Origin: Schizosaccharomyces osmophilus
Taxonomy: Eukaryota; Ascomycota; Schizosaccharomycetes; Schizosaccharomycetales; Schizosaccharomycetaceae
Direction of reading: 5' to 3'
DNA: 64,000 bases
NCBI RefSeq assembly: GCF_027921745.1
Contig: NC_079239.1
Location: 771,501-835,500 of the forward strand
The notes beneath the pieces were generated by a model. That model saw nothing but the letters and a program-made list of their open reading frames with translations, did no database searches and was not told the origin of the DNA. Of the stretch, positions 14,224 through 41,599 are shown piece by piece. A program made the position numbers and the translations under genes. Numbering within the stretch: position 1 is the first letter of the stretch; each line of letters begins with the position of its first letter.

Positions 14224-16491
14224 TTACCAATCACTGCGACCAGCGGTAGACTGTTTAGGCCGGGAAGGACTAAGGCGAGCACGGCTACGCTTGATGTTCA
14301 TCCAGGGGAAATTCTCCTCTCTAGCAGCTTCAAAAGCGTCAATCTTTGCGGCTTTTTGCAAGGTTAGACCAATGTCATCAAGACCATTAACCAAACAATG
14401 CTTGCGGAAGGGCTCCACTTCAAATTTGATCTCCTTATCGTCATAGCGAATGACTTGGTTGAGCAAGTCAACAGTAAATTCCAACTCCTTTTCGGCAGCA
14501 GCCATCAATTCATCGACTTGCTCAACGGGCAAGGGAATAGGCAACATGCCGTTCTTGAAACAGTTGTTAAAAAAGATATCAGCAAAAGAAGGAGCAATGA
14601 CAACCCGAATGCCAAAATCATTCAAAGCCCAGGGGGCATGTTCACGCGAGCTACCACATCCAAAGTTTTCCTGTGCGACCAAAATGCTGGCGTTACGGTA
14701 GGGTTCACGGTTTAAGACAAATTCAGGCAATTCGTTACCGTCGGAATCATAGCGAAGATCGTAGAATGCAAACTTACCAAGACCGGTACGCTTGATTGTC
14801 TTCAAGAATTGCTTAGGAATGATTTTGTCTGTATCGACATTTGAAATAGGCAAAGGGGCAGAGACACCGGAAACTACGGTAAACTCAGGAATACCAGCGG
14901 TTGCGGCGCCAGGTCCACCAGCGACACTTGTAGTCATACCAGCGGAATCCGTAACAGCATCGGTGGCATCATCCACAGCAAGGGAAATAACACTACCGAA
15001 ATCATGAGAAGGATCATAATTTCTATTGGTGATGACGGTAGGGGATCCGGTGGTGGCATCGCCAAAGAATTCTCGAACATTGCAGAGATGTCCCTTAACG
15101 GCGGCAGCAGCAGCCATAGCGGGACTAACAAGATGAGTACGACCCTTGGCACCTTGACGGCCTTCAAAGTTACGATTAGAAGTGGAAGCACAACGTTCGT
15201 AGGGCTTCAATTGGTCAGGGTTCATACCGAGACACATGGAACAACCGGCTTCACGCCAGTCGAAACCAGATTCAATAAAGATTTGATCCAGACCCTCAGT
15301 TTCGGCCATTTTCTTAACCAAACCAGAGCCAGGAACAACCATAGCATGTTTGATGTTGCTAGCGACCTTGCGACCCTTGACAACAGCAGCGGCAAGACGC
15401 AAATCTTCAATACGTGAATTGGTACAGGAACCAATGAAGATTTTGTCCATGGGATAAGAAGCGATAGGAGTATCGGGCTCAAGGCCCATATATTCCAAAG
15501 AATGTTGGATAGATGCAGCGCGAACAGCGTCGTTGACCTTGAAAGGATTAGGAACGGTGCCGTTGACGGCGATTACATCTTGAGGAGAAGTACCCCAAGT
15601 AACGGTGGGCAAGATATCAGCAGCATTAATTTCGACTTCAATGTCATACTTCGCGCCCTTATCGGAGCCCAAAGTCTTCCAATAGGCGACGGCGTGTTCC
15701 CAATCGTCGCCCTTGGGAGCCAAGGGGCGGTTCTTGACATACTCAAAGGTAGTCTCGTCAGGAGCAATCATACCAGCACGGGCACCGGCTTCGATGGACA
15801 TGTTGCACATGGACATACGGGCTTCCATACTAAGAGCCTCGATGGCTTCACCGCAGAATTCGATGACGCAACCAGTACCACCGGCGGTACCGATCACACC
15901 GATAATATGCAACATTAAATCTTTGGAGGCAAGTCCTTCGGGGAGGGTACCGCTGACGTGAATACGCATATTCTTGCTCTTGCGCTGCAAGATGGTTTGA
16001 GTAGCCAAGACATGTTCGACTTCACTTGTACCGATACCAAAAGCCAAAGCACCAAAAGCGCCGTGGGTAGAAGTGTGGGAGTCACCACAAACCAAGGTGG
16101 TAGCAGGGAGGGTGAAACCTTGCTCGGGACCGATAACGTGAACGATACCTTGACGGCGATCGGTCATGCCAAAATAACTCAAGCCAAACTCCTTGATGTT
16201 GTGCTCTAAGGCCATGACTTGAATACGGGAGTCGGGTTGATGGATGAAGGATTCGAGGTCCTTCAAGTCCTTGCGGGAATCGGTGGGAATATTGTGGTCG
16301 ACGGTAGCCAAGGCCAATTCAGGACGACGGGCGTTTCTGCCAGCAGTGCGAAGGCCTTCAAAAGCCTGAGGCGAGGTTACCTCGTGGATTAAGTGACGGT
16401 CGATATAGAGCAAACAGGTGCCATCTTCTTGTTTGTCAACAACGTGGTTGTCGAAGACCTTGTCGTATAATGTTTTCGGGATAATATACAT
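14224..16491 (-). CDS. leu2: 3-isopropylmalate dehydratase (LeuCD fusion)
   Basis: Intronless, 755 residues (S. pombe Leu2 about 758). It isomerises 2- to 3-isopropylmalate, the second step of leucine synthesis. Fungal enzymes fuse the large (LeuC) and small (LeuD) bacterial subunits. Here the LeuC part spans about 1-480, with [4Fe-4S] ligands Cys356 (IGSCTNSR), Cys417 and Cys420 (AGCSMCLG). An Ala/Gly/Thr-rich linker at about 510-545 leads to LeuD, with [14 protein letters not shown]. No presequence is apparent. The first ATG is at 16491, followed upstream by about 900 nt with no ATG on this strand. Confidence 0.96.
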
Positions 16492-17390
16492 ATTTCAAAA
16501 GTCTTATAACAGAGGGAAAAAACCAATAAATAAGCTCAGAAAGATCAGCACGAAGGATATGTGCGATTTAAAAAAAAAAAAAGAAAAAGAAAAGAAAGTG
16601 TTCAACAAATTTATCCTTTGGAATTAGAAAAGAAGCGTTCAACAAAATAAAACGCAAATTATATAAAAAAAAAGTTCAAAGATGAACGTTGATTACGTTG
16701 AATGGAAATATAGTCAATGGAACAAGGAACCCTCCGTTTAATAACAATCCCAAAAAAAAAAGCCCAAACCACTGCTTATATAAGGGCAAAAAAGTTATGG
16801 TGTTTGGTTGTTGACGACTTAGATGGGCGGCGATCTTGTGAAAAATAAGCAGTTGAATTGCAAGACAATTGATTGGCACTTGATAAGATCTAGTAGCGAT
16901 GGATTTACCGATGACTAATGGCGCCACCTAGGTGTTTGTAAGGGTGTGTAAGGAAGGGATAGGGAGGGAGTGGAAGGTTGCCAACGCCCGAGTTTGTTAT
17001 TTGTAATTAGTGTAGTTGAAAGAGAAAGGTTGGCTCGGGCTAAAGAGTTGTAGGGTGGTATGTACTGGGGAAATGTTTGAGCAAGTTCTTTGACAGCAAG
17101 CAACAAAGGAAAGATTTATATTCTTCGAAAAATACTTTTCAAAGTTACTTTTGATTAAAGAAATGATGAAAAGAAAAAATAAACAAAAGCAAATGGGAAG
17201 AACGATGAGAAACAACGATGTTGGTACCTGAACTTGAAACTAGGTAAAGCTTGGCGAGTCTATCCTTTGGCCAAGTAGCCAATCAACGTAGTTGAAGAAA
17301 CCTTGTTAATGGAGCGAGTCAAATAAGGTCAGACGATTGTGACCGAGGAAACCGGTTGAACAAGAGACAAAGAGCCACTAGAGGTAGGAG
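16492..17390 (-). other. Putative 0.9-kb ATG-free 5' leader of leu2
   Basis: Read on the - strand, no ATG (no CAT on the given strand) occurs between the leu2 start and 17390, 899 nt. The + strand of the same segment has a dozen or more ATGs. A - strand TATAAAAG lies at 17445-17438, just upstream of where the ATG-free stretch begins. I interpret this as a long transcribed leader that ribosomes scan. Confidence 0.55.
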
Positions 17391-17793
17391 CATGGCATGG
17401 CATAAATTGTTGAAATTTAGATGAAATCAAGAGTTTTCTTTTATACTCGTTTCAACTTGAAGGATGAGGGAATGCATTCATTGTTTACAAAGGGATTGCA
17501 GGTCATCGAAAGATTCAAGCCAGACTCCCATGAAGTCATCCAGGGAATTCTGTAGGCTTGGCACATTGATGGAGAGGTAGCCTAGTGGTGGACTCTGTGG
17601 CAAAACAAGGTCACTTTTACAAGACAAAAGGCAAAAGACGAATTGCGGAAACGAGGACGGATGATGGAAGAAATGCAGGGGCCAACGGTAGCTCTAACTT
17701 TTTAAAGTGTTGGTTCATGATGAAATGGGACTTGGAACCATCTGAAGGAGTTGCTTGAAACCATAAAAAGGGCGGCAAAGAACAGGAAAAATG
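17391..17793. promoter_or_regulatory. Compact back-to-back promoter core between leu2 and sfp1 leaders
   Basis: About 400 bases left between the two ATG-free leaders. TATAAAAG (- strand) is at 17445-17438, and a TATA-like CATAAAAAGG (+ strand) starts at 17762. ATGs occur here on both strands. Promoter function is inferred from these positions. Confidence 0.45.
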
Positions 17794-18976
17794 AATTTTT
17801 TTTCCTTTTTTCTATTTGTTATTTCCTATTTCCTATTTTAAGATACAATCAACCTCTACCTTTTTTGAAATCGCATTGCATTGTTGTTCTACCCCATCTC
17901 GCCAACAAGACTTCTCGTCGTTTGTTTCTATATTTAAGTGCCGACCGTTTCCCCACCAACGTTTTTCGTTTCTACGGTATCTTTAGTTTTCTTCTTTAAA
18001 TTTTTTATATTATTTCATTTCATTTTATTTCATTTTCATTTTCTATTTCTCTTTTTTATTTCCAATTTTTGGACTTTTGCTCTTCTGAAATCAACACTCC
18101 CTTCCTAACACTCTCGAGAAACTCTTTATTAATTTTACGTCTCCCGTCGTCCGCTAGTGCAATCGAGTTGTTACTTGGTCTTCCATCCATTGTTACCCGC
18201 TCAACCCAACCATCTAAACAGAGACCCTTCTGACAGATCTCAACGGACCCCTCTCTTCAAAGCGTCCGAGTTCACTGCACAGTGGTGCCTGTCAATCGCT
18301 CCACTTAGTCATCCACGTTAACGACCCTCTTCCAGGCTTGTCTAGTTCCTTGGAGTATCGCCACTAGCCCTCCCCCCCTTCTCCTCTTTCTAGCTCGTTA
18401 AACTTTGTCAAGGACAAAGTTCATCGAATCTCTATCTGGCTTCTTCAGTCTCGCGAATAGCTACTCTGAACCCCCTCTACTCGTCTGTGATTGGCTTACA
18501 TCCGGAACCTAGAGCGGTAAGGAGACTGTTCAAGCACTTTCTCCGACTAACCGTGGCGACATACTCGGTAGTAATTGGTTGGCCACCTCCTCGTCGTGAA
18601 AGCCACCAATCCTCTCATTGGCTGGCATATCATATTGCCTTTTTAATTGACAGCTTATTACCCGTACGTTCTGTCCTCTTTGAATTGTTACTTCGTCCTT
18701 TGTTACTCACCTCTTATTACGTAGGGCCTCCTGCCTCACCTTATCCACGCAACCGGCGGAGTACTTAAACGCTGGTTTCCCGCCTGCGGTCCCTCGTCCA
18801 ATTTCCCATTTCCCTACTACCTACCAGTACCATTGCTATTTGAAGGCTTTAGGAGGAGCCTTTCAACCGAAATCACGTTGGAATAAGCAATTGGCTTGAA
18901 AACCCGTTTTCTCCTCTTTACCTTTAGTTCTCTCCCATCACCCTTTTTCCCCCAATCCTATATTCCTCCAATCCTT

Positions 18977-19012
<36 letters not shown>

Positions 19013-19606
19013 GATATTTATATACACACACATTCCCGCCGAACGTTAGTTTTCTGGGAATTCGTCAATTGTTGATTGTGAATTGCCGATTGTGTGTTTT
19101 TCCCCGTAGCGATTCATTCTTATTTTTGATTGTTTCTGATTGTGTGTTAAAAGTCCTAGGTCTTTTAGATTTCTTTTCGGACTAGTGTTTTTTGTTTTTC
19201 TGTTTTCTTTTTTTCTTTTTTTGTTTGGTTTTCCTCTTTGGATTTTCAGATAGATCAGATTCCAATACCCGGTGTGGTTTTCGTTTCTCTTTTTTGGGTT
19301 TCTTTTTTGTTGCTGTTTTTTTGTGTCTTTTTGGTATTCTGACTTCGGTTTGGAATTTTTTGACTTGCAAGAAAAGTACAATCTATTTCTTGGTTCTTTT
19401 GTTTGTTGTGTGTTTTTTTTTCCGGGTGTGTGTTCTTTTCATCTTATTCTTACCCACGATACCTTGATCCATTGGGTTTCTTTTTCTTTGTATTTTCTTG
19501 GTGGTGAGTTTGTCTTTCTTTCGTGATCAAGAGTTTTCTTGATATCTCGAGTGGTTATTATTATTTTATTATTTTCTCTTTTCTGCTTTCTTAGTTTTTT
19601 TTCGCT
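17794..19606 (+). other. Putative 1.8-kb ATG-free 5' leader of sfp1
   Basis: I checked every line: no ATG occurs on the + strand from 17794 to 19606 (1,813 nt), while CAT is common. The stretch is pyrimidine-rich, strongly so in its last 500 bases, and contains an alternating TA run at about 18977-19014. The desert begins about 25-30 bases after a TATA-like element and ends exactly at the sfp1 start. This is best explained as a very long mRNA leader under selection against upstream start codons. Confidence 0.65.
18977..19014. repeat. TA dinucleotide repeat
   Basis: An interrupted alternating TA tract inside the sfp1 upstream region, a simple-sequence repeat likely to vary in length. Confidence 0.85.
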
Positions 19607-20968
19607 ATGCCATCTCTTGCGTTACCAATAAATAAACCTTCTCACCATAACGCGCCTAGTGCTGGAAACTCTTTTGCCAGTCCACAGGCTACTCCCTTCG
19701 GGTATAGCCCCCAATCTTTTGGCAACAGCTTCTCTGGACATGCTTGGCTGCGAGACGCGATTCCCTCTGTCACCTCCTACCCCGAGCAACATCGCCCTTC
19801 CGATGACTTCTCCACCATGTATCCCAACCGTCTCGAGGAGGCCTTTTGTCGCAACTTCAATTGCTGCGGAAAAAATCTCGATGATCTCCATCAACTCATT
19901 CATCATTACGAAGAGCAACATGCCGTTCTTCCCTCCGATGTAAATCTATCCTCCTCTCTTGATAATAGTAACTCGGCCAGTGTTGCGAACCATTTAAATC
20001 GCAACAATATCCAAGCTCTCAAACAGCGAGAGCGCATTCGTATGCACGATTTGGCCGATCAGATGGATTCATCTCCCCTTTATGACAATTCTGCTGTTAT
20101 GCCATTTGCTTTCCCCGCAAATGAAGGTACAAATGGTCCTTACCGCGTCTCCGTCGTTGTGCCTGCAGCTGCCGCAGCTGCCGCAACTGCTGCCAACCCG
20201 GACCTCGCTGAAGAGACCTCCATGCAAAACGAGCCTGTCTCTACCCCTACTTTTCTTCCCGAGTCCATGGTTATGGATGATGCTAGTTCTCCCCTCAGTG
20301 ATATGAGCTTTAACATGGATATTGGCAGCGGTAATCGCTACAACATGTTTGGTGTGAACCAAAAAAATGATCCTGAATCAGCTTTTCTCCCCCCTTTCCA
20401 CTATGGACACGATGTCTTCTCTTTTCATCCCGATACCCGTCCTGACACCCCAAATACCGTCCATTCCGAACCTTTTCCCGATAATGTTATGTCTCCCACT
20501 CCACCGGAGGTTGTTGCACCTGCTGCTACAAACACGGCTCCTAGCTCCCCCTTCATAAAAAATTCAAGTAAGGACTTTGAATGGCCAGTGCCGTTGAAAA
20601 AACAGCGCTCAATTTCTCCAGAGTCTTCCGAATCTCCTATGACCATAGATTCTCCTGGCTCAAGTTTGGTTGTCGTCGATAAGCCTTATAAATGCCCTGT
20701 TCCCAATTGTGACAAAGCTTATAAAAATCAAAATGGTTTAAAGTACCACAAACTCCATGGCCATTGTTCCCCCATTACCACGCCGACTCCGACGCCAGTT
20801 CCTCATCAGGGTTTTGTTGTGGAAAATAAACCTTATAGATGTGATACTTGCAATAAGCGCTACAAAAATTTGAATGGCTTAAAGTACCATCGTGCTCATA
20901 GCCATTTGCAAGTTTCTATGGCTCAAGCCCAACGCGAGGTCCAAATGAGTTTTATGCGCGACGCATAA
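19607..20968 (+). CDS. sfp1: C2H2 zinc-finger transcription factor, Sfp1-like
   Basis: Single exon, 453 residues (S. pombe Sfp1 about 442). The budding yeast Sfp1 family controls ribosome biogenesis genes in response to nutrients and TOR; the role here is inferred from that family. A finger-like CRNFNCCGKNLDDLHQLIHH segment lies near residue 85. Two C-terminal C2H2 fingers (about 362-385 and 410-432) share the odd core KNLNGLKYH / KNQNGLKYH and are separated by a Pro/Thr linker. An Ala-rich run (AAAAAAATAA) and Ser/Pro-rich low-complexity regions lie between. The 1.8-kb ATG-free leader upstream suggests strong translational constraint. Confidence 0.88.
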   Translation: MPSLALPINKPSHHNAPSAGNSFASPQATPFGYSPQSFGNSFSGHAWLRDAIPSVTSYPEQHRPSDDFSTMYPNRLEEAFCRNFNCCGKNLDDLHQLIHHYEEQHAVLPSDVNLSSSLDNSNSASVANHLNRNNIQALKQRERIRMHDLADQMDSSPLYDNSAVMPFAFPANEGTNGPYRVSVVVPAAAAAAATAANPDLAEETSMQNEPVSTPTFLPESMVMDDASSPLSDMSFNMDIGSGNRYNMFGVNQKNDPESAFLPPFHYGHDVFSFHPDTRPDTPNTVHSEPFPDNVMSPTPPEVVAPAATNTAPSSPFIKNSSKDFEWPVPLKKQRSISPESSESPMTIDSPGSSLVVVDKPYKCPVPNCDKAYKNQNGLKYHKLHGHCSPITTPTPTPVPHQGFVVENKPYRCDTCNKRYKNLNGLKYHRAHSHLQVSMAQAQREVQMSFMRDA

Positions 20969-38978: not shown

Positions 38979-41255
38979 ATGTCCTCTGAAAAATCGCAAC
39001 TGTCACCATGGTTTGCTCCTACTGGACATAACACGGAGTTGAATGTTTTTAACACCATCACCCATTCCAAGGTCCCTTTTAAGACCAATGGATCTATGGT
39101 CACTTGGTATTGCTGTGGTCCAACCGTATACGATGCTAGTCATATGGGGCATGCCCGTAATTATGTGACCACCGACATTTTGCGAAGAATTTTACAGTCT
39201 TATTTTGGTTACAACGTTACTTTTGTTCAAAATGTAACTGATATTGATGACAAAATCATTCTTCGGGCCCGTCATCAATATCTTTTTGAGCAATACAAAA
39301 AGCAAAACGAGCACAACTATGCTTCCTCAGATGTTAAAGCTAAAGTTGCAGACGCATGGCTAACTTATGCAAAGAAGAATCTCCCCGAGCCTCCTCTATC
39401 CATGGAAGAATGGCCTAAATGGTTGGCTGCAAACGATGTTACCACTTTGGCACTTACAGCTCCCAAGGTTCCCCTTTATATTGACTCTCTCAATCAAGGT
39501 GTAGAGGCAATCAAACTTGCTGAGGAAGCAAATCTCGAAAATGGGGAATATTTTTGGTCTAAGGTTCAAGAGGTGCTTGTCCCTGTCCTTGACTCTGAGC
39601 TTGGAAGTACCGTTACGGATCCTGCTATTTTCCGTAAACTATCCGCTTACTGGGAAAATGATTATAACCAAGATATGCGTGCTTTGAACGTGTTACCACC
39701 TACCACAGTTACTCGCGTTTCAGAGTTTGTCCCTGAAATTGTTGAATATGTTCAAAAAATTATCGACCGTGGTTATGCTTATCCTGTTACTGATGGGAGT
39801 GTTTATTTCGACACTGAAGCCTTCTCTAAAGCTGGTCACTTTTATGCAAAGCTTGAGCCTTGGAACAAGGGAAACCGTGAGTTAATTGCTGAGGGTGAAG
39901 GCTCTCTTGCTGCTTTAACCGGTAAGAAGCGTCCAGGTGATTTTGCCCTTTGGAAGTCTAGTAAACCGGGTGAGCCTTCTTGGGATAGTCCTTGGTCGAA
40001 AGGCCGTCCAGGCTGGCATATCGAGTGCTCTGTAATGGCTAGTGCAGTGCTAGGTTCCAACGTGGATATCCATTCCGGTGGTGTCGATTTAGCTTTTCCG
40101 CACCATGATAATGAATTAGCCCAAAGTGAAGCATACCATGATTGCCCTCAATGGATTAACTACTTTTTGCACACTGGCCATCTTCACATTGAAGGCCAAA
40201 AGATGTCGAAATCGCTTAAGAACTTTATTACTATCAAGGAAATCCTCAAGAAATTCACACCTAGACAACTTCGACTTAGCTTTTTGTTGCAACAATGGAA
40301 CTCTCAACTTGATTTTAAGGATGCTCTTTTGGCTCATGTGTTGAATGTAGAACAAACCTTTGAAAACTTCTTCCAAACCGTCAGAGCTTTGAATATTGAA
40401 GCTCAAGGTGTTAGCCAACAAGGAGGTCACGTTAGAGAAAAATATGGAGAACTCGAAATGCAACTCTTGAACGATTTGCAAACCGCTCAGCGCAATGCTC
40501 ATTCTGCTTTGTGTGATAACTTTAATACTCCTTTGGTTATGTTCCATATTGATAGTTTAGTTGGAAAATCTAACATCTATATCCGAGAGGTTGGGCAAAA
40601 GCCCTGCACTCGCTTACTTACCGAAGTTGCCATGTGGATTACCAAAATACTGCAAATCTTCGGTTTGGATGATGAAGGCCATCCCAATGCCATCGGATGG
40701 TCCTCCAAATCCTCTGCTTCTGCTTCCGGTTCCAACGATACTATGCCATATCTACGAGCAGTTTCTACTTTCCGTGATCGAATTCGCGAACTTTCCATAG
40801 CCAAGGCTCCTATTCAAGAGATTTTACAAGCTTGCGATGTCTTTAGAGACTATGACATGGCTGAGCTTGGTGTTAGCTTGAATGATCGCCAGCAAGGACC
40901 AGCCTTGATTAAGCTTGGAGACCCTCAAGAATTGATTCAAGCACGCGACCAGAAAATTGCTGAAGAACAAGAAAAGGAAGCAAAGAAATTGAAGGCGAAA
41001 GCCGACCAAGATAAGAAATATGTTGAGCGCATTATGAAAGGCAAAGTATCTCCTTCAGAAATGTTCAAATTATTTGAGGAATTTTTGTCGTTTGACGAAA
41101 GTGGCTTCCCTACAAAAGTCCGTGCAGAAGACGGTTCTGAAGCTGAAGTACCTAAGAGCCGGAAGAAGAAGTTACAAAAAGAATACAGCGCCCAAGAGAA
41201 ACTGCATAAAGAGTACTTGGCCTACATAGAAAAAAACCAGCAAGGTAAAAGTTAA
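38979..41255 (+). CDS. Cysteinyl-tRNA synthetase, probably dual cytosolic/mitochondrial
   Basis: From the first in-frame ATG at 38979 the product is 758 residues. It charges tRNA-Cys. The class I HIGH motif is HMGH (in [17 protein letters not shown]), the zinc site includes the Cys of [12 protein letters not shown] and [11 protein letters not shown], and KMSKS is exact ([11 protein letters not shown]). An insertion after [20 protein letters not shown] is typical of eukaryotic CysRS. The C-terminus is a Lys-rich helix. The frame is open 50 codons upstream of the ATG and reads as a mitochondrial presequence; see the separate entry. Confidence 0.95.
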
Positions 41256-41599
41256 TCATTCTTTAATATTTATTCAGTTTCAACTTTTGGTGTGGTGAAA
41301 GATTTCGGTTTTTTGTATATCTTGTATATTAGCATCAAGACTAACCTTAGTTATACCTAGCCCAGGCTAATTTTATACTGTTTCTATAATTTTCATAAAT
41401 AGACTATAAATTCTTCTTATAAGATTAGAGTGAATTGCCTTTCTTTACATAGTACGATAATAAATTCATCATCACACTTAACAGTAATTGGCGCGTTGCC
41501 AACATACACTTCCACCCTTCTACTACTCAAAAACTTCCTTACTTCAGCATATTTATATACATATTTTAAAAAGCAAGGAATAACAGGTTTAAAATAAAA
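41256..41599. other. Spacer CysRS / mxr1
   Basis: 344 AT-rich bases between two co-oriented genes. Nothing further is seen. Confidence 0.65.

Follow-up and report, generated by a model that had tools for sequence, protein, structure and literature searches.

Genes and features of the locus

The window, that is, the whole stretch of 64,000 nucleotides analyzed here, contains a pair of divergently oriented genes, whose coordinates are collected in Table 1 together with those of the features lying between them. The gene content of the window is Schizosaccharomyces-like. In a comparison with solved structures, the LCD1-family protein found no match and the TBP part matched 35 TBP sequences, which do not single out a species. 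The protein encoded on the plus strand is taken by us to be Sfp1, following the naming in the initial annotation; its zinc fingers, which support this identity, score just below the respective curated cut-offs of Pfam (PF00096, E 5e-05; PF12171, E 7.3e-04), and residues 407–441 align to the ubi-d4 finger 3iuf_A (E 1.3e-08). The gene on the minus strand is presumably leu2, encoding an enzyme of the isopropylmalate isomerase type. The start codon of sfp1 was taken from the open reading frame and not from protein data. An unspliced N-terminal extension was also considered; an in-frame stop 15 nt before the start codon of sfp1, and another 6 nt before that of the leu2-like gene, speak against it. 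The two genes are separated by 3,115 bp, of which 2,712 bp lack ATG when read toward the closer gene.

Table 1. Coordinates of the genes and sequence features at the sfp1/leu2-like locus (positions within the window)
Feature	Position	Strand	Remarks
leu2-like gene, 755 aa	14224..16491	-	Aconitase family; PF00330, E 5.3e-176; PF00694, E 3.8e-39
ATG-free run, putative leu2-like leader, 899 nt	16492..17390	-	Second longest of 2,193 runs
Stretch between the ATG-free runs, putative shared divergent promoter, 403 bp	17391..17793	.	ATG on both strands
TATA-like element TATAAAAG	17438..17445	-	Faces the leu2-like gene; starts at 17445, ~55 nt before the leu2-side run
TATA-like element CATAAAAAG	17762..17770	+	~32 nt before the pyrimidine switch; sequence, motif count
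ATG-free stretch, putative sfp1 5' leader, 1,813 nt	17794..19606	+	0 ATG, 25 CAT; shuffles; changepoint at ~17795
TA repeats, possible proximal TATA	18977..19012	+	~0.57-kb leader if the start lies ~30 nt downstream
In-frame TAG	19592..19594	+	15 nt before the sfp1 ATG; sequence
sfp1-like gene, 453 aa	19607..20968	+	Open reading frame; two C-terminal C2H2-type zinc fingers

Loss of ATG upstream of sfp1

A direct count confirmed the statement of the initial annotation that no ATG occurs on the plus strand between position 17794 and the start codon of sfp1. The last ATG before the stretch is located at 17791 and the next one, at 19607, is the start codon itself, so the stretch ends exactly where it had been said to end. 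The number of CAT triplets had been put at about 20; they are present, but their actual number is 25. The earlier estimate of roughly 20 ATGs expected by chance is close to the value of the independent-base model (21.9), and a dinucleotide-preserving model gives 16.5. Shuffling the stretch never removed all ATGs: the minimum was 5 in 10,000 dinucleotide shuffles, 6 in 3,000 shuffles of the whole stretch, and 5 in 3,000 local shuffles within 150-nt blocks. After masking of simple repeats (runs of TA, GT/TG, and CA), 13.1 ATGs were still expected and none observed.

Among the 64 triplets on the plus strand of the window, ATG has the most extreme gap relative to its mean spacing (32.6 times), followed by TTT (22.8), AAA (20.2), and CAT (14.7). 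The stretch upstream of sfp1 is also the longest of the 2,193 ATG-to-ATG runs found on both strands of the window.

The antisense triplet CAT occurs at near the expected frequency (25 vs. 29.5), which rules out a strand-blind avoidance of ATG at the DNA level; neither this nor composition therefore explains the loss of ATG. In the repeat-masked counts, no depletion was revealed for the near-cognate codons CTG, TTG, GTG, ACG, AAG, ATA, ATC, and ATT, with observed-to-expected ratios of 0.96 for CTG, 1.24 for TTG, 1.30 for GTG, and 1.09 for ACG; AGG, for which the count is unmasked only, occurs 8 times against 10.5 expected. An apparent excess of ATA and GTG had been considered as a mutational trail of lost ATGs, and this idea was dropped since masking reduced the ratios from 1.71 to 1.11 and from 1.65 to 1.30, respectively. 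The depletion is thus specific to the sense strand and goes beyond composition, with ATG as the sole triplet lost.

The 5' edge of the stretch and the length of the putative leader

Within positions 16492–19606, a single changepoint in pyrimidine content was placed at ~17795 (17790–17798), where the pyrimidine fraction rises from 0.38 to 0.66 with a log-likelihood gain of 123.8. Both strand skews change sign at the same point, the GC skew from +0.28 to -0.37 and the AT skew from +0.32 to -0.42. The purine-to-pyrimidine switch coincides with the 5' edge of the ATG-free stretch; however, skew and the scarcity of ATG around 17795 do not constitute fully independent lines of evidence. Only weak GC skew has been reported around the genes of Schizosaccharomyces pombe (PMC3315797), which counts against the explanation proposed below. 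The TATA-like element which the initial annotation had noted from position 17762 is indeed present, although it is not a canonical TATA box.

In the first 500 nt of the stretch only about three ATGs are expected (cumulative value 3.14 by ~18293), and the absence of ATG alone therefore leaves the 5' edge unfixed; a start as late as ~18290 may be compatible with the counts. Based on the ATG statistics alone, the putative sfp1 leader would measure at least ~1.3 kb (roughly 95%, Poisson). With the skew edge raising the estimate above this minimum, a length of ~1.8 kb is the most likely. That the leader exceeds the coding region (1.36 kb) in length, as claimed earlier, is accordingly likely rather than proven.

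Further TATA motifs are found within the stretch at 17929 and 18977–19012, and the GC skew changes at ~19000 from -0.48 to about +0.09. The last ~600 nt (18994–19606, plus strand) pass from C-rich to T/G-rich sequence and have a slightly positive GC skew, unlike the remainder, with the TA repeats located at the boundary. The positive skew of this part and the internal TATA motifs count against the explanation proposed below.

ATG-free runs at other genes of the window

Eighteen putative starts were examined in the window. Five of them were flagged as likely internal exons and excluded, namely parts of threonine synthase, Bap31, TBP, a WD40 protein, and KTI12 (runs of 95, 10, 4, 7, and 17 nt, respectively). 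Runs of more than 380 nt end at four of the 13 retained starts: sfp1 (1,813 nt), the leu2-like gene (899 nt), methionine sulfoxide reductase (536 nt), and aldehyde dehydrogenase (384 nt). At the other nine the runs span 34–177 nt, values to be read with the reservation that some of these starts, predicted as if introns were absent, may be wrong. A long ATG-free run is consequently not a feature of every gene in the window.

Of the 2,193 runs, the longest leads up to the start codon of sfp1 and the second longest to that of the divergent leu2-like gene. When the ten longest are taken together, four end at considered starts and six do not, including a run of 613 nt on the minus strand (39404–40016), which lies antisense within the coding region of cysteinyl-tRNA synthetase. 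Runs of 400–600 nt therefore need no leader and prove little on their own. The 536-nt run on the plus strand (41064–41599), which ends at the start of peptide methionine sulfoxide reductase, shares part of its length with the 3' end of the preceding gene.

The divergent leu2-like gene and the region between the two runs

The minus-strand run on the leu2 side, which goes unmentioned in the initial annotation, extends right up to the start codon of the leu2-like gene at 16491. It contains no ATG against 7.1 expected, a result that was obtained in none of 3,000 whole-stretch shuffles and in two of 3,000 block shuffles; on the opposite strand, 17 ATGs occur and 16.8 are expected. The 403 bp between the two runs behave differently, having 14 ATGs vs. 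10.0 expected on one strand and 12 vs. 6.6 on the other, which is above the shuffle mean.

A loose TATA pattern, [TC]ATAAAA[AG], matches 34 times in the 128,000 strand-bases of the window. One match per strand within 403 bp is modestly unusual, for a pattern that was picked after looking at the sequence. Transcription generally starts 25–40 nt after a TATA element; with this spacing, the minus-strand ATGs at 17393, 17398, and 17403 would fall into the leu2 leader, and the position of the leu2 start is for this reason less certain. Furthermore, the positive skew on the leu2 side continues to 17792, so this start is unmarked by skew. The best reading of the region would be that two long, scanned, and AUG-purged leaders point outward from a common promoter of 403 bp. 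The pairing of divergent long leaders, together with their length, is striking.

A scanned and AUG-purged leader as the proposed explanation

Considering these results together, we regard it as highly probable that the sfp1-like mRNA carries positions 17794–19606 as its 5' leader, transcribed from ~17795 and scanned by ribosomes, and that selection has purged this leader of AUGs. The initial annotation had already proposed a long leader of this kind. The loss of ATG alone and on one strand, the skew edge at ~17795, the fact that the run stops precisely where sfp1 begins, and the parallel at the leu2-like gene all speak for it, while we infer from the sequence the transcription of the whole stretch, selection as the cause, and linear scanning by the ribosome.

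According to this proposal, transcription would start near 17795, ~30 nt past the TATA-like element, at the right edge of the 403-bp divergent promoter, and the same promoter would fire the leu2-like gene leftward with a leader of its own of ~0.9 kb. Capped 40S subunits would then scan through the sfp1 leader until they reach the first AUG, the true start codon. An AUG newly arising in the leader would capture ribosomes or trigger decay, and AUGs would therefore be removed by selection. What such avoidance indicates is a need to translate the long mRNA; regulation, such as the translational or nutrient control which the initial annotation had suggested as a possibility, does not follow from it.

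Several other explanations should be weighed against this one. Chance, or the pyrimidine-rich composition as such, has a practically negligible probability: composition does lower the expected number of ATGs, from ~32.6 at the window-wide spacing to 16.5, but none of the pooled 16,000 shuffles, 3,000 of which kept the local composition, was without ATG, and this rules it out; GGG, second to ATG in depletion among the 64 triplets, falls only to 0.53 of its expectation. A possible, though in our opinion doubtful, scenario is the use of several starts. Most sfp1 mRNA would then come from a proximal promoter, for example at the TA repeats, whereas a less frequent long isoform that is translated in some condition would keep the distal part free of AUG. 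The internal TATA motifs and the change in composition at ~19000 favor this scenario, but TA repeats give only a weak indication of a promoter, and the upstream 1.2 kb (17794–18993), for which about eight ATGs are expected, contain none. For selection to act, the long isoform would consequently have to be produced and translated with sufficient frequency. The scenario overlaps with the long leader preferred here, and additional shorter sfp1 isoforms are compatible with the latter.

Introns are numerous in fission yeasts, and one located in the leader would make the scanned part far shorter than 1.8 kb. A motif scan detected two weak 5' splice-like sites (GTACGT at 18664 and GTTAGT at 19045) and five branch-like motifs. 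An intron, however, needs no purging of ATG, so a long one should contain this triplet, and the stretch has none; we consider this explanation very unlikely. Little credence can likewise be given to the view that the upstream part belongs to a separate non-coding RNA, or to an untranslated long isoform which represses sfp1. Repressive long isoforms depend on upstream AUGs, and the case in budding yeast is reportedly that of NDC80. Although a repressive long mRNA is known from that organism (PMC5655150), non-coding or repressive RNAs are not expected to shed AUG, and the ATG-free run is unbroken up to the start codon of sfp1.

Comparison with known leaders

Profiling of translation complexes in fission yeast has described cdc25, cdc13, cig2, and mei2 as genes with long 5' UTRs, large regions of high small-subunit coverage, and sometimes parts free of uORFs (PMC9825154). 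The putative sfp1 leader resembles them as the long leader of a regulatory gene; their 5' UTRs are measured transcripts (PMC9825154), whereas that of sfp1 is deduced from sequence and has no AUG in 1.8 kb. Long scanned leaders are thus already known as a kind in fission yeasts, and it is the length at sfp1 and the divergent pairing that stand out. A depletion of upstream AUGs in 5' UTRs, attributed to purifying selection, has been reported across eukaryotes (PMC7889888), and a published null model treats 5' UTR length as neutral, with the risk of upstream AUGs as its main constraint (PMC12604664). As in the genome-wide pattern, AUGs are lost ahead of the main start at sfp1; the genome-wide depletion is a statistical one over many genes (PMC7889888), whereas at sfp1 a single very long stretch is completely devoid of AUG.

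The leaders of fil1 and GCN4 are likewise long leaders of transcription factors with a link to nutrients. They are, however, controlled through AUG uORFs, with an additional CUG uORF in fil1 (PMC9825154), while the 1,813 nt upstream of sfp1 contain no ATG and hence no AUG uORF of the GCN4/fil1 type. A non-AUG uORF may be present. In a fitness screen, the S. pombe sfp1 deletion was relatively resistant on minimal media with glutamate or ammonium (PMC5990653); the screen links the factor to nutrients and is silent on its leader. Literature searches by the sfp1 name and systematic identifier returned no length for the leader within the text covered, and a value may be in print; the main text of PMC10761120 does not contain the name sfp1.

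A more far-reaching idea, which we put forward tentatively and judge to be rather unlikely, is that the two leaders (~1.8 and 0.9 kb) and their single 403-bp promoter serve a common regulation of a growth regulator (sfp1) and a gene of amino-acid biosynthesis (leu2-like): the extreme scanning distance would tune the output, both mRNAs would depend to an unusual degree on scanning capacity, and the two genes would be co-regulated with growth and nutrient state without any AUG uORF. Irrespective of this, a natural leader that exceeds 1 kb by a wide margin and is devoid of AUG would provide a clean test bed for the range of scanning in vivo and for the strength of selection against upstream start codons. 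The locus also suggests that ATG-free runs in combination with a switch in strand skew, here pointing outward to both genes, may reveal transcription starts and divergent promoters from the bare sequence.

Possible cost of the putative leader and predicted RNA structure

By analogy with one reporter series in budding yeast, in which leaders of 350–500 nt had earlier been found to cut translation about eightfold, a leader of this length could be costly (PMC12415969). The authors of that study blame C-rich motifs for the effect, and longer unstructured leaders, tested to ~500 nt, had a modest effect when such inhibitory motifs were absent (PMC12415969). No enrichment of C-rich repressive motifs was detected in the sfp1 stretch (TCC 45 vs. 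51.4 expected, ACCAC 0) or in the leu2-side stretch (TCC 18 vs. 19.0, ACCAC 1). The window contains no known structured RNA at the Rfam gathering scores and no tRNA according to ARAGORN (bacterial code). A comparison with a plasmid collection gave no match to related DNA, and none was expected.

On average, the predicted folding energy amounts to -13.1 kcal/mol per 100 nt in the putative leader, compared with -18.5 in the coding region and -15.2 when the leader is folded as its reverse complement. When 12 blocks of the leader were each compared with 30 mononucleotide shuffles, the z values ranged from -3.5 to +1.1. The lowest value belongs to the block 18394–18543 (plus strand), which is predicted to be more stable than its shuffles, the next lowest being -1.6.
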